64,000 nucleotides of DNA. It comes from Simmondsia chinensis (Eukaryota; Streptophyta; Magnoliopsida; Caryophyllales; Simmondsiaceae). Shown here piece by piece: positions 4,058-58,132 of this stretch. Location: the NCBI GenBank assembly GCA_018398585.1, contig JAGTTD010000001.1, positions 14,634,501 through 14,698,500 of the forward strand, given 5' to 3'. The position numbers and the translations under genes are program-made. How positions within the stretch are numbered: position 1 is the stretch's first letter; the number at the start of each line of letters is the position of its first letter. The notes under the pieces were generated by a model that was not told the DNA's origin, searched no databases, and was given only the letters and a program-made list of their open reading frames with translations.

Positions 4058-4171
4058 GTCATTATTATGTTGTCATATACATGATATAGTGAATTTATTA
4101 CTTAGATATCTTGAGGATTGCTTTTTCTATTACTCAGGTATCTTAATGCTTCAATATTTACAATGAGATAC

Positions 4172-6023
4172 CCAACAACAACAACAACAATAACAAACAC
4201 AATGCCTTAAGGGCTCTCGCATATGCAAATTCTGGGGGAGGAGGGGGTGGGATGTATGCGGCCTTACCCCTTCAAAGGGAGGTTGTGTCCGAAGACCCCC
4301 AACCTGAGAAGTATAAAAACATGAAAACATCTAAGCATAAGAGCATACAAACAATGCCACAGAGAAAGCATATAGAAAGTCTAAAGCAGCAATAAGCAAT
4401 AAAGCGACAAAGTGATAGAACTATAAGGAACCAACACACAACAATAGCACATAGTATAGTCAAACAGGCATACATATAAGCCTAAGAGTGCTAGTGCTAG
4501 CATAGTTGTGCCCCTCTATCCTAAACCGCTATATTTGCTACACTTATGCTAACTCTCCATTCAGCTCTATCTAGGGCCATCTCCTCATTTAGGTAGAGGC
4601 GGGTGAGATCATGTTGAATTGTCTCCATCCAACTCTTCTTTGGCCTGCCTCTCCCTCTCCCGTTTGTAATATGGAGTTGTTCGCATCTCCTGACAGGAAT
4701 AGTGATCGGTCTCCTCCTAATATGCCCAAACCACCAGAAACATTGCTCTCTTAGCTTGTCATTGATTGGAGCCATGCCCAATTTGCTTTTTATAACTTTA
4801 TTTCTAATCTTATCCTTACTTGTGTGTTCACACATTGACCGCAATATCCTGATTTTTGCCACCTTCAACTTCGATGTATGATGCCGTTCAACTGGCCAAC
4901 ACTTCACATCGTAAGACATTGCTGGTCTCACTATCGCCTTTTAATAGTTTCCCTTTAACTTTAATGGGAACTTTTTATCACATAGTAATGCAGAGGCCAT
5001 CCTTCATTTATGCCAACCTACTTTAATCCGCTTGTTGACATTTGCATCAACTTCACCGTCTTGCTGCACATGGAACCCAAGAATTTAAAACAATCTTTCT
5101 TTGGTATGCACTCCGATCCAATCTTTATGTCTTCTATACTTAGCCTGGTTTAGGTACAAAACTTGAATTCTATATACTCGGTCTTCGATCCACTAATTCA
5201 TAATCCTTTCTATTCCAGGCCGTTCTCCAAATTTCCAGCTGTTCATTCACTTATTCTCTGGACCCCCCTTAGCACTATATCATCTGCGAAAAACATGCAC
5301 CAAGGTGCACCCCCTTGGATGTGTCTAGTGGGCTCATCCATTATCAGAATGAACAAAAAGAGACCCAAGGTTAATCTTTTGGTGTACCCCTACCGTAATG
5401 GGGAAAGCATATGTCTCCCTTTCCGCTGTATGCACATTAATTAATGCGGCCTCGTACATATATTTAATAGTCGGATATAAGACAAGGGAATGCCTTTCCT
5501 CTCTAAAACCCTCCATAAGACCTCTCTTAGTACTCTATCATATGCCTTCTCCAAATCAATGAAACCATATGAAAATTATTTTGTCTATCTCTGTAGCACC
5601 CTATCAACTGCCTTAAAAGATGAATGACTTCTATCGTCGATCTACATTGGTTCTTTGAGACCCCTGTTTGTTGCTGTAACCTTCTTTTTATGACCCGCTC
5701 CCATAACTTCAGAATGTGGCCCATTAGTTTGATTCCCCTATATTTGGCACAACTCCGTATGTCGCCTTTGTTCCTATATATCGGAATTATGTGCTCTTTC
5801 TCTACTTGTCAGGCATCTTCTTATCTTAAATAATTTGTTTGAATAGTTTGATCAATGATCTGATGCCCTTATCTCCAATGCATTTTCATGCCTCAATGGG
5901 TATTCCATCTAGGCCGACTGCTTTACCCCTGTCCATCTTTTTCGAGGCTTCCCTGACTTCCTCAGGTGTAATCCGCCTATAGTAACAATGGTTCTGGTGC
6001 TCCTCAGATGCTCGTAGTTCCCC
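4172..6023 (-). mobile_element. RTE-type LINE, 5'-truncated, in BSK intron
   Basis: A minus-strand non-LTR retrotransposon. Its 3' end at left is a (TTG)n tail, seen as CAACAACAACAACAA from about 4172. Before that comes a GC-rich 3' UTR end and the C-terminal part of an RTE polyprotein. It is flanked by TACAATGAGATAC (4159-4171) and TACATTGAGATAT (6024-6036), a 13-bp target-site duplication with two mismatches. The endonuclease end is missing, so it is 5'-truncated, as usual for LINEs. Its 3' terminal 120 bases match the tails of the SINE-like copies at 26.7, 27.3, 33.9 and 56.3 kb. Confidence 0.85.
4521..6020 (-). pseudogene. RTE LINE reverse transcriptase
   Basis: Read from about 6020 downward. 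Blocks are RGKAVGLDGIPIEA, then MPDK and KSTXFRYIGTK, MGHILKLWERVIKRRLQQQT, a catalytic FFADDIVL box at about 5270-5290, and the C-terminal GRGRGRPKKSWMETIQHDL block ending near 4521. These are hallmarks of plant RTE elements. Several stops and frameshifts make it non-coding. The 3' UTR runs from 4520 to 4172. Confidence 0.85.
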
Positions 6024-9169: not shown

Positions 9170-9848
9170 GGACCAGATAGTCAACCCATTAAGGCATGGA
9201 GAGACATTGGACAGAAAGGTATAAGTTGGTTGACTAAACAATTCAACCTAATTCTTTAAGATAAGAAGATGCCTGAGAAGTGGAAGAAAAGCACCCTCAT
9301 ATTGATCTATAAGAACAAAGGCCATATTCAGAATTGTGCCAACTATAGGGGGTAAAACTAATGAGCCATACTATGAAACTATGGGAGCGGGTCAGAGAAG
9401 AGCCTAAGGCAACAAGTAGGTGGATTTACACCTAATAGATCTACGATGGATGTGATATATCTCCTAAGGCGTACTATTGAGTACTATAGAAGTAAACAAA
9501 AGGATCTACACATGGTCTTCATTGATTTGGAGAAGGTATATGATAGATTGTTAAGAGAGGTGCTATGGAGAGTTTCGGAGAAAAAGGGCATCTTCGTAGC
9601 ATATATTCGGGTCATTAAAGACATGTATGAAGGTGCATTGTGATTTGATGGCCGTTGCTTTAATGTTCCTTTATTGTCTGGTTTGCTTTCCGTTTCTTGC
9701 TTCTTGCTTTTTTTCAAAGAGTTGGGGCACTCAAACACAGCTTCTCTTCTGGGTAAAACCCTAAAGAGGCAAGGTTGTGTAAATCTTTCCCCCACACCCT
9801 GTTTAGGCGGGAGTCCTTGTGGCACTGGTACGGTTGTTGTTGTTGTAT
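9170..9848 (+). mobile_element. RTE LINE fragment, internally deleted
   Basis: Plus-strand RTE reverse transcriptase remnants read GISWLTKQFN, KKMPEKWKKSTLILIYKNKG, NCANYRG, MSHTMKLWERV, then DLHMVFIDLEKVYDR and IRVIKDMYEGAL (9446-9643). The frame then stops and, after about 80 unrelated bases, the element's 3' tail appears at 9720-9848: GGCGGGAGTCCTTGTGGCAC and a TTGTTGTTGTTGT end. The palm with FADD and the C-terminus are missing, so a large internal deletion or a second insertion has occurred. Confidence 0.82.
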
Positions 9849-26558: not shown

Positions 26559-26661
26559 AGTTGAGTAACCATGGTTATAGCCACATGACCTAATGATTTT
26601 TGTGTTATCTTTTTCTTTAAAATTTTGATGCTATTTCTCCTACACTCTTGTATGAGTCAAT

Positions 26662-26923
26662 AACAACAACAACAACAGATCTAATGCCTCAAGGGCTCCC
26701 ACATAAGCAGGATCTGGAAGGGGTAAATGTACACAGCCTTACCCCTTCAGGGTGTAACTTTGCCGAGAGGATGTTCCAAAGGACCCCCAATCTTATAGCG
26801 TTGGAAACACAAGGACTTCCCAGGAGATCATCCATCCTGGTACTACTCTCACCCAAGCACGCTTAACTTCGGAGTTCTAATGGGATCTAGTGCCTTAGTG
26901 CCTAGTAAATGAACCCTTTTTTT
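26662..26923 (-). mobile_element. SINE with 5S rRNA-derived head
   Basis: A 262-bp element flanked by perfect 11-bp duplications TATGAGTCAAT (26651-26661 and 26924-26934). On its own strand it begins with a short A run, then a near full-length 5S rRNA-like head (26916 down to about 26803), then a body, then a tail with GGGAGCCCTTGAGGCATTAG and a (TTG)n end. The body and tail, from TTGGGGGTCC onward, match the 3' end of the RTE LINE at 4172-4330. A 5S head with a LINE-like tail is the SINE3-type design. Single-event template switching is the alternative explanation. Confidence 0.82.
26803..26916 (-). pseudogene. 5S rRNA-derived sequence (SINE head)
   Basis: On the minus strand the sequence follows plant 5S rRNA from its 5' end to near its 3' end. 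A perfect AGTTAAGCGTGCTTGGG box (26852-26868, the A-box region) is kept. A C-box-like AGGATGGATGATCTCCTGG (26820-26838) differs at two bases from what I remember of the plant sequence. Changes near the 5' end and the altered last bases argue against a working 5S gene. The internal pol III promoter layout is preserved. Confidence 0.85.
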
Positions 26924-26966
26924 TATGAGTCAATCATTACACTAATTAATTTAACAAAAAAGGAGA

Positions 26967-26968
<2 letters not shown>

Positions 26969-27022
<54 letters not shown>
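26969..27022. repeat. 54-nt G homopolymer
   Basis: An uninterrupted run of 54 G following AGGAGAGAGG, 45 bp from the SINE. No other homopolymer in the window is this long. It could be a real G-rich microsatellite or a sequencing/assembly artefact. Confidence 0.97.
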
Positions 27023-27222: not shown

Positions 27223-27362
27223 AACAACAGCAACAACACTATAACATAGTGCCTCAAAGAGACTCCTATAATAGCAATTTTGAAGGACTAAAATATGCGC
27301 ATCCTTATCACTACATGGTGCTACCCAAAGAGAGGTTGTTGCCGAAGGGACCCAAACCCAAC
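27223..27362 (-). mobile_element. SINE/RTE 3'-tail copy, 5'-truncated
   Basis: It reads on the minus strand from TTGGGTTTGGGTCCCTTCGG through GGTAGCACC to GAGTCTCTTTGAGGCACTAT and a GTTGTTGCTGTTGTT tail. It is the same terminal module as at 4172-4330 and 26662-26800. No 5S or tRNA head is visible. Confidence 0.72.
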
Positions 27363-33861: not shown

Positions 33862-33899
33862 AAAAGGATATATAATGCATTTATATGTATTTGTGATCA

Positions 33900-34018
33900 A
33901 TAACAATGACAGCCACCTAGTTCCTCAAAGAGGCTACCGCCAAAACAGGGTCTGAGGAGATAAGATGTACGTAGCCTATCCTCAAATGGTGCTACCCTAC
34001 AGAGATCTATGAGATTGT
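33900..34018 (-). mobile_element. SINE/RTE 3'-tail copy
   Basis: On the minus strand it reads GGGTAGCACCATTTGAGGAT, GTACATCTTATC, then AGACCCTGTTTTGGCGGTAG and a degraded TTGTTATTG tail. It is the same terminal module as the RTE LINE at 4172 and is 5'-truncated. Confidence 0.7.
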
Positions 34019-55735: not shown

Positions 55736-55985
55736 AGCAGCGGTTTTTTTTTGCAGCGGTTCTTAAACCGTTGAATAAAGTTATTTTATGCAACGGTTTT
55801 GCAACGTTTACAAAATCGTTGCATTACATAATATATATGCGGCGGTTTATAAGCCGTTGCATTAGGCCCCCATTATGCAGCGGTTTTGACCATTTTATGC
55901 AGCGGCTTTAAAACCATTGCATTAGGCCCTCGTTATGCAGCGGTTTTGACCATTTTATGCAGCGGTTTTAAAACTGTTGCATAAA
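55736..55985. repeat. CACTA subterminal repeats
   Basis: At least nine copies of a GCAGCGGTTTT-type motif occur in both orientations, some forming hairpins such as GCAGCGGTTCTTAAACCGTTG. A 59-bp tandem duplication (TTAGGCCC... to GTTGCAT) lies at about 55862-55980. In CACTA elements such motifs are transposase-accessory binding sites; that role here is inferred. Confidence 0.85.
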
Positions 55986-56218
55986 GTCTAAAAAATTTTA
56001 TTTTATTCACAAGGAAACCAATAATATTGCGTTTAAAAGTTTTTGGTAAATTAAATATTAGTATATGTAGATATGGAGTAATAATTATTTAGTTTATAAA
56101 CTTCGTGAAACAACCAAATGCAACTACATAATTTGCTTATTTCTGATGACTCGTCAAGATAGATAATAAAAACCATCAAAAATGGTATAGCAATTATCAT
56201 AGGAAGTATCAGTTGTCA

Positions 56219-56370
56219 TGGAAGTCCTCCTAGGAAATCCTCACCCTTCAAGTTGGGTGTACTCGGAAACAATCTTTCTTCAAGGTAGCACCCTGAAGGC
56301 GAAAAATTGCGTACATCTATCCCCCCAGATCCTACTTAGGCAGGAGCCCTTGTGGCACTGGGAATGTTGC
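56219..56370 (+). mobile_element. SINE copy in CACTA, possibly 5S-headed family
   Basis: The tail reads GTACATCTATCCCCCCAGAT, CCTACTTAGGCAGGAGCCCT and TGTGGCACTGGGAATGTTG. Upstream AAGTTGGGTGTACTCGGAAA and AGCACCCTGAAGG align with the 26.7-kb SINE body. Further up GGAAGTCCTC stands at the place of the 5S 3' end. The rest of the head is too diverged to call. Confidence 0.68.
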
Positions 56371-58080
56371 TTATCCCATACTCTTAAAGCATCTGTCCCC
56401 TTAATTTTAGATGTTCTTTTTACTTTTAATTGTTCTCTTCCCCGTCTATATCCTAATTTGAGTTAGAGTATCAATTAAAACTCGGTTTATAAATGAGTAT
56501 GAGTTAATTAGTTTAATAATCAACTCGGTGTTGCATTATTAACTTGACTCATTTCAATTATAATTGATAATTATTTGTTTTACATACTCAAATATAAATT
56601 TAGTTTATATTACTCAAAGAAAATTAATTATGTTAAAAAACACAGCTTTTAATTCAAAAGAAAATCAGTAAAGCAAAAGCAAACATCCGCCTCTCTCTCT
56701 CTCTCTCCTCATCTCCTGCCTCAGCTCACCTCTCTCTGTCAACCCGACCCCTGCCTCAGCCCTCTCTCTGCTCATCTCTCTCTCTCGAAAGCCCTAACAC
56801 CCTACCTCTCTGCTTACGTCTCTCTCTGCTCACATCTCTTGCTTCAGTGGTCCCCTCCCTCTCTCTCTACTCGGGCGAAATCGTTGCTCACTGACAACCG
56901 TCCTGCTCACTGACCTGATTCGAGGTTCTTCAAGGTAAATCACCTAAATCAAACATTAATATGTCGACATTGCTTTTTGAATGCCTGATTTCTTATATGT
57001 TAGGGTTTATTAGTTTAAAGACACATTAATTTTGACATTACTTTTACTATTTGTATAGTGTGATTACATATACATGGTTGTTGATGTTGCTATTGACATT
57101 AGGAATTTGTCAATTTAGTTCTCTGTTGTTTGAGTAGGGTTTTATAATGATAGGGTTTTCATCATTTTAGTTCTCTGTTGTTTTAGTTCAAACTTTAGAG
57201 TTAACCCTAAACTCATTTCTGAATGACATTATCGATTGTAAAGTGGGGTTTATAGTAATGGAACTTAAACTTATGACCTCTTATATGTATTCTCAAATTT
57301 GGATACGGTTTTGTCACTAAACCAAGACTTTATTGGCTTGTATTTCGAAGTATCATTTTAACAGGAAACGTTATTGAAAAAAATAATCTAGTGCTTGTAT
57401 ACATGAAAACGTTTGTGTGGTAGGCTACGCGAATCAAAGTGATGATTTTGAGCTGGTTGTGCTTCACCTGGGTATTATGTACATGAAAGCCTCCACTGCT
57501 GTGCATCTCTACTATTGTTTGCTTTGCCTTGTTAGTCTTTGGATGTAGCTTTCTTTTATTTGTTCTTTAGTTATGTTTGTTTACTTTGTGTTTGGTTTTT
57601 GTTGTTTTTGTCTCTTTCAGGACCCCGCCTATAGCTCTAGGTTTACCCCCAATTATCAAAAAAAAAAAAAAAAAAAAAAAAAAGAATACATCAAAATAAG
57701 AATAAGTAGTTTTATATTATGTGTATAGTGAGCAAGATATGCATTATGTTGTTAGCCAACTTGATCTTGTCCATCTCCTAAGTCTCTCTCTATTAATCTT
57801 CTTGTCATCATAATTGATTATGTCATTTAATTTTGTTAGGAATTTAAATTTTGATGCATTGATTAGGTACAATATTTTCCTAACTCCTAGATCGACGACT
57901 TGTCTCTCCAACTTTGACGACAACCACCGCACTCCTCCACCCTCTAACCACTGCAGGAGGCTCATCGTTCCAGCCTCCGGTGCTCTTCGCCTAAGTCCTT
58001 TCTCTCATTAAAAGGTTAGTTTCAATGTCAAAACTCAAATAATTTAGATTTTAATGTGTTTTTCTACATTTTTGTATAAT
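56371..58080. other. CACTA leader region, CT-rich and AT-rich DNA
   Basis: CTCTCTCTCTCTCTCTCC-type stretches at 56692-56880 resemble a 5' UTR, perhaps of the transposase transcript. 57600-57683 ends in a run of 26 A (57658-57683), preceded by T/G-rich text like the 3' end of a LINE. An open stretch at 57814-58011 is not recognised. No gene is supported. Confidence 0.5.
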
Positions 58081-58100
58081 ATACTAAGCCCTAACTTTTA

Positions 58101-58132
58101 GGCACTGGGACTGTTGTTGTTATTGTGGTTGT
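58101..58132 (+). mobile_element. 32-bp SINE/RTE tail insertion with 20-bp duplication
   Basis: GGCACTGGGACTGTTGTTGT and the next 12 bases are the extreme 3' end of the SINE/RTE module. They are flanked by ATACTAAGCCCTAACTTTTA (58081-58100) and ATATTAAGCCCTAACTTTTA (58133-58152), 19 of 20 identical. This looks like an extreme 5' truncation during target-primed reverse transcription. Confidence 0.85.

Follow-up and report, generated by a model that had tools for sequence, protein, structure and literature searches.

In a stretch of 64,000 nucleotides of the genome of Simmondsia chinensis (contig JAGTTD010000001.1 of assembly GCA_018398585.1, positions 14,634,501 to 14,698,500; hereafter the window) we find a short interspersed nuclear element (SINE) whose 5' half derives from 5S ribosomal RNA (rRNA) and whose 3' half resembles the 3' end of a long interspersed nuclear element (LINE) of the RTE clade. 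The element has thousands of relatives in the same genome, which share the junction between the 5S-derived head and the body and carry target-site duplications that mostly differ from copy to copy. The explanation that we favor, and in which we place high confidence, is a high-copy plant SINE family whose transcripts would be made by RNA polymerase III (Pol III) at a promoter of the 5S type and which an RTE LINE would mobilize. The family has the features by which SINEs are recognized, being short, dispersed and present in many copies, with a head derived from a Pol III RNA, a LINE-like 3' end and variable duplications, and it has the 5S head, internal control region included, that marks the 5S-headed SINEs (SINE3 in the structural sense).

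A first-pass annotation of the window, made from its letters alone, had described a 262-bp minus-strand element with perfect 11-bp flanking duplications, a nearly full-length 5S head with a perfect A-box region and a tail ending in (TTG)n, and the coordinates, the strand and all of these parts stand as it gave them (Table 1). Among 11-mers that contain all four letters, the two flanking copies are the sole pair at a spacing of 271-275 in the window. The 5S_rRNA model of Rfam matches the head from 26918 to 26800 on the minus strand over model positions 1-120, with 57.1 bits (gathering score 38) and an E-value of 2.5e-9. Our plant 5S reference, here and below, is a provisional sequence and not the host's own 5S; blastn finds the window copy identical to it at 87 of 96 positions, with the A-box region perfect, and in a longer alignment eight of the 12 substitutions are C>T or G>A. 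We assume that a type 1 internal promoter for Pol III, made up of boxes A, IE and C, lies in the head. The tail aligns to two other tails in the window, at 9758-9846 (69/91) and at 4180-4274 (70/95). ARAGORN found no tRNA in the window, a search that a decayed tRNA would escape, and the head of the window copy is 5S and so not the transfer RNA (tRNA) head that characterizes RTE-tailed SINEs of the TS type. A chance reading frame spans the junction, for which the protein collection gave one candidate and nothing significant. At 45 bases from the element there is a run of 54 G (26969-27022; C on the element strand), the only run of G or C of at least 20 in the window.

The copy number was established in the assembly containing the window (831,394,711 bases in 35 contigs). 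A search with the element gave 8,531 first-look candidates, with matches on many contigs. The 40 that were scored, which are the top ones by design, each span nearly the whole element, starting at query positions 1-11 and ending at 254-262; one is the query itself, the other 39 are 87-89% identical to it, and the 41st row of the search is a piece covering query positions 199-260. A strict pattern, consisting of a 5S 16-mer, 94-124 bases and a tail motif, has 603 exact matches (314 + 289), and a 24-mer spanning the junction has 7,248 with at most three mismatches (3,721 + 3,527), or 8.7 per Mb; the reversed control gave 0 in both cases. Since the window copy, with four mismatches, is missed by this cut-off, 7,248 is a lower bound for its own type, called type A here. 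The bacterial and viral contig collections gave 0 matches for two patterns in each. The first-pass annotation had raised the possibility of a multi-copy family with a shared head-body junction, and had named a single copy, or a junction different in every copy, as grounds for giving it up; what the counts reveal is a junction common to thousands of copies, together with a minority type B that has a different one.

Ninety non-overlapping copies were fetched for closer study, in three sets: the 30 most similar to the query, 40 with the strict pattern (the first 40 listed, 27 on contig C1 and 13 on contig C2) and 20 with the exact junction (out of 26 places listed on C1). The head is present in all 20 of the exact-junction copies, and body and tail as well in 19, the remaining one (L087) ending just beyond the junction and not reaching the tail; in 14 of the 20 the alignment begins within the first six positions. 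Rfam scores 5S above its gathering score in 20/20 loci submitted, which were chosen by us from the 90. In the alignment the 5' end of type A reads (A)GGGTTCATTTACC, close to the 5S start, while most rows have the join CGTGTTGCCAACCCTATAAGGTTG or near variants of it and (TTG)n at the 3' end, the latter being lacking in three rows of type B. A majority sequence was built from 36 copies, namely the strict-pattern set without its type-B members (L031, L043 and L069) and the composite L055, and of the 98 positions from 17 to 114 its head agrees with the reference 5S at 96, the only differences being C>T at 39 and T>C at 79, with three more at 115-117. The majority join also contains an inverted repeat, CCAACC...GGTTGG, so that a putative small hairpin may form where the 5S part ends.

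The 36 copies diverge from their majority by 11.6% on average (range 5.3-17.2%; columns fixed by the pattern are excluded from this figure and from the next two). Divergence at CpG is 20.5% (117/570) against 10.9% elsewhere (823/7,562), a bias that is consistent with methylated repeats of moderate age. Outside CpG, divergence is 6.6-8.9% in the stretches of 5S beyond position 20, 11.8% in the body and 15.1% in 5S positions 1-20, and because the pattern by which the copies were picked favors a conserved head, we do not take the low values in the head as a sign of selection on inserted copies.

The flanks of the copies were scored for duplications with a little leeway in where the ends should lie and with two mismatches at most, and for the controls upstream flanks were paired with downstream flanks taken from different copies. 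A duplication scoring at least 9 is present in 24 of the 30 best copies (mispaired controls 1/288), in 29 of the 40 strict-pattern copies (3/231) and in nine of the 20 exact-junction copies (4/190), giving 62/90 against 8/709 when pooled; at a score of at least 11 the three sets have 23/30, 22/40 and 8/20, against 0/288, 1/231 and 0/190. Most are 12-22 bp long. Their sequences vary from copy to copy, as the first-pass annotation had anticipated for true insertions of a family, with the exception of one pair: L035 (C1:1577196) and L036 (C1:1593117), about 16 kb apart, have an identical 20-bp duplication and are for this reason best read as probably a single insertion that was duplicated later.

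The 3' half of the family has its counterpart on LINE fragments in the window. Positions 6-138 of the type-A body align to the RTE-like 3' end within 4170-4330 at 100/120 with 20 gap columns, a score of 350 where the maximum among shuffles is 127, and the body aligns to the tail of the second fragment, 9377-9846, at 97/124. Both of the window tails that align to the element adjoin LINE coding pieces. The piece at 4524-4940 has no Pfam match but matches 16 proteins with identities of 42-61%, and those among them that bear a name come from Cuscuta and Nicotiana; the piece at 9377-9640 matches RVT_1 with an E-value of 1.5e-4 and 22 bits, which is under the cut-off of 29.6. Of five LINE pieces scanned, this is the one with RVT_1, three are without a match, and one has a weak ATP-grasp match that we take to be chance. 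The claim that the element shares its tail with an RTE LINE of the window holds as regards the tail and the coding sequence next to it; the clade is our provisional assignment, made because of the (TTG)n tail, which plant RTE LINEs have (PMC3747384). A tail profile made from five seeds finds seven tails above threshold, the seeds and two more, one at 33899-34005 (-) and the other, which is short, at 58095-58126 (+), and only two of the seven have 5S-like sequence upstream, the element (score 211) and 56247-56371 (83), the other five scoring 31-47.

Table 1. Position, strand and basis of the features identified in the 64,000-nucleotide window
Feature	Position in window	Strand	Basis or remarks
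Type-A 5S-headed SINE	26662..26923	-	262 nt; 27/256 positions differ from the type-A majority sequence (36 copies)
Target-site duplication at the element's 5' end	26924..26934	.	perfect, 11 bp
Target-site duplication at the element's 3' end	26651..26661	.	perfect, 11 bp
5S rRNA-derived head	26800..26918	-	Rfam RF00001, model 1-120/120
Head-body junction	26788..26811	-	4 mismatches to the family junction 24-mer
Body and tail module like an RTE LINE 3' end	26678..26805	-	alignment to window tails
3' (TTG)n repeat	26662..26677	-	read from the sequence
RTE-like LINE, 3' part	4181..4940	-	coding piece 4524-4940, tail 4181-4308
Second RTE-like LINE fragment	9377..9846	+	reverse transcriptase piece 9377-9640, tail 9721-9846
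RTE-type tail, no recognizable 5S head	27224..27361	-	tail profile, 5S score
RTE-type tail, no recognizable 5S head	33899..34005	-	tail profile, 5S score
Decayed second copy, type B by its join	56205..56371	+	3' part of 5S plus body

From this anatomy we infer how the family would multiply. Since the first base of the head coincides, or nearly so, with the natural start of 5S, Pol III would most likely transcribe the element, beginning at its first bases, from an internal promoter like that of 5S genes (type 1, dependent on TFIIIA). The remaining ~140 nt are an RTE LINE 3' end with (TTG)n, and the transcript would therefore most likely be recognized by an RTE reverse transcriptase through the 3' end that the two have in common. 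Insertion would take place by target-primed reverse transcription, leaving the duplications, and the family itself would have arisen when 5S RNA was fused to an RTE 3' end, probably by a template switch, and the product was then amplified.

Several observations weigh against this explanation. The majority head is poorly 5S-like in its first 16 nt, with 12 differences from the reference sequence. Six of the 20 exact-junction copies align only from position 19 or later, which may reflect either truncation or divergence, and no duplication scoring at least 9 is found in 28 of the 90 copies, among them all six of these late-aligning ones, for which the duplication search was placed at the full-length 5' end. 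The nearest LINE tail compared, within the window, is only 83% identical to the type-A body. Lastly, the predicted fold of the window copy's RNA is no better than that of shuffles (z 0.97; 168 of 200 shuffles at least as stable), a result by which promoter function is neither supported nor excluded.

Three of the 40 strict-pattern copies constitute type B. Their head begins CACCAACACACC..., unlike that of type A, and their join is GTCCTC/ACCCTCAGG; perfect duplications, one of 17 and one of 19 bp, flank two of these copies. Types A and B could be 5S-SINE families that were put together independently, an RTE tail having acquired 5S anew in each case, given that they differ in the 5' end of the head, in the junction and in the (TTG)n of the 3' end, and given the perfect duplications of the two type-B copies. 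On the other hand, T39 and C79 are common to both types as against the reference 5S, a point that falls if the host 5S has both; the B junction can be read as that of A with a short deletion; and L061 looks, by eye, intermediate between the two. We regard two separate captures as possible but doubtful. There is a third join variant, CAATCCTGTCAGG, in L038, with a related form in L065, and L055 has a type-A copy starting within the 5S head directly after an apparent type-B tail, a nested or dimeric arrangement.

The window itself contains a second, decayed copy (56205-56371), whose fit is slightly nearer to B (101/125, score 401; 40/168 differences) than to A (103/131, score 379; 44/170 differences). 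Of 31,652 null windows, 0 attain its score of 83 against the reference 5S and seven attain its score against the 5S half of the window element, the tested stretch having been picked after the match was seen; an earlier, looser test was weaker, with 19 and 42 of 3,942 null windows and 21 and 37 of 4,000 shuffles. Rfam reports nothing for this stretch up to an E-value of 10, so that the assignment to 5S rests on the join and on the score against null windows. No exact flanking repeat of at least 6 bp was found around it.

The tail of the family may resemble the Angio-domain of plant SINEs, and the family might for that matter already have been described in the plant SINE literature, as an Angio-SINE or under another name. 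BovB, to be met below, is a LINE of the RTE clade. In what follows known systems are compared by description, from titles, the openings of abstracts and some passages of the papers cited. Plant SINEs are described as tRNA-derived in a review, in agreement with the first-pass annotation, and 5S-headed SINEs are reported not only from fishes and mammals, as it had stated, but also from insects and a fungus (PMC3747384, PMC10886601, PMC3272025, PMC5063351). SINE3/AmnSINE1 of vertebrates, HaSE3 and PxSE4/5 of Lepidoptera and the 5S-related SINEs of Aspergillus fumigatus have a 5S-derived head, as here, but differ in body, tail and host. Ped-1 of the springhare is tabulated as a 5S head with a BovB tail (Ohshima 2013, PMC3747384); like the present family it joins a 5S head to an RTE-clade tail, but the host is an animal, the tail is that of BovB and the origin is presumed to be independent. 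The TS SINE of tobacco has a tail of ~100 nt in common with an RTE-clade LINE of plants, and TTG repeats close the tail of each (PMC3747384); it is similar to our family in its tail but has a tRNA head. For Angio-SINEs (Seibt et al. 2020) the review describes a domain of 37 bp that many SINEs of angiosperms have close to their 3' end, and the heads of Angio-SINEs, as far as the review says, are tRNA-derived. A Metrosideros SINE labelled '5S-Deu-L2' (PMC13084152) amounts to 68 bases in that genome, and we take the label to be spurious.

The design is known, then, from animals and a fungus, and the plant-like head and tail of the present family argue for an origin independent of vertebrate SINE3. 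As to an earlier description of the family, PMC10853983 cites Seibt et al. 2020 for the reshuffling of promoter regions in SINEs, but it names animal SINEs when discussing such promoter capture, and no plant 5S-SINE appears in the titles, abstract openings and passages searched, which did not include the main plant SINE papers. That the family has been described before seems to us unlikely; in view of the scope of that search and of the citation for promoter reshuffling, we make no claim of priority. The boldest form of the finding, in which these are the first 5S-headed SINEs known from flowering plants, with well over 7,000 copies in one genome, RTE tails acquired 5S on two or more occasions (A and B) and, throughout a lineage of plant SINEs, a 5S promoter has taken the place of the tRNA promoter, we consider speculative and somewhat improbable.

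Cassandra, a plant terminal-repeat retrotransposon in miniature (TRIM), makes use of 5S as a promoter (PMC10853983, PMC10886601), as our family would, but it is a long terminal repeat (LTR) retrotransposon, marked by 5S inside its LTRs, a primer-binding site and a polypurine tract, and has no RTE tail. That the 5S sequence reported here belongs to a Cassandra-type TRIM, or to dispersed 5S ribosomal DNA, is very improbable, since it is the ~260-bp unit itself that is flanked by duplications in most of the 90 copies and since the 3' half of that unit is RTE-like; Cassandra may nonetheless be the ultimate source of the 5S piece, LTRs and 5S spacers not having been searched for. The main alternative of the first-pass annotation, a one-off chimera in which an RTE reverse transcriptase switched from RTE RNA to 5S RNA during a single insertion, would account for a head whose two ends lie close to the start and the 3' end of 5S, but as an account of the family it is refuted by the thousands of shared-junction matches, by the exact head-to-tail matches of the strict pattern and by the same arrangement in all of the best 40 candidates, and we give it practically no chance. 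A single template switch is nevertheless likely as the founding event of the Pol III-transcribed, RTE-mobilized family that we favor.

The window reads as flowering-plant DNA. Gypsy, copia and LINE frames were recognized by eye, flowering-plant names occur among the protein matches, and the gypsy relatives reach 64% identity at best among the best 120 of 2,017. Direct repeats spaced about 5.3-5.6 kb from each other form three pairs (11372-11772/16816-17197, 27446-28315/33009-33862 and 47633-47856/52938-53164), which are possibly the LTR pairs of retrotransposons. A tandem array with an 83-bp unit extends from 58896 to beyond 61800, where the repeat finder counts 39 register matches to a 300-nt reference and lists 30, and a weak Rfam match to MIR1319 at 55749-55864 (32.5 bits, gathering score 116.6, E-value 0.047) is probably due to chance.

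If a 5S-headed family with thousands of copies is indeed present in a plant, then 5S has been recruited in plants in parallel to animals and a fungus, and plant RTE LINEs are able to bring a 5S hybrid to high copy number. The action of a type 1 (TFIIIA) promoter outside the 5S arrays of plants would become testable, and many dispersed 5S-like matches are to be expected wherever such genomes are studied with 5S probes or scanned with Rfam. Insertions that share the junction may also serve as phylogenetic markers.
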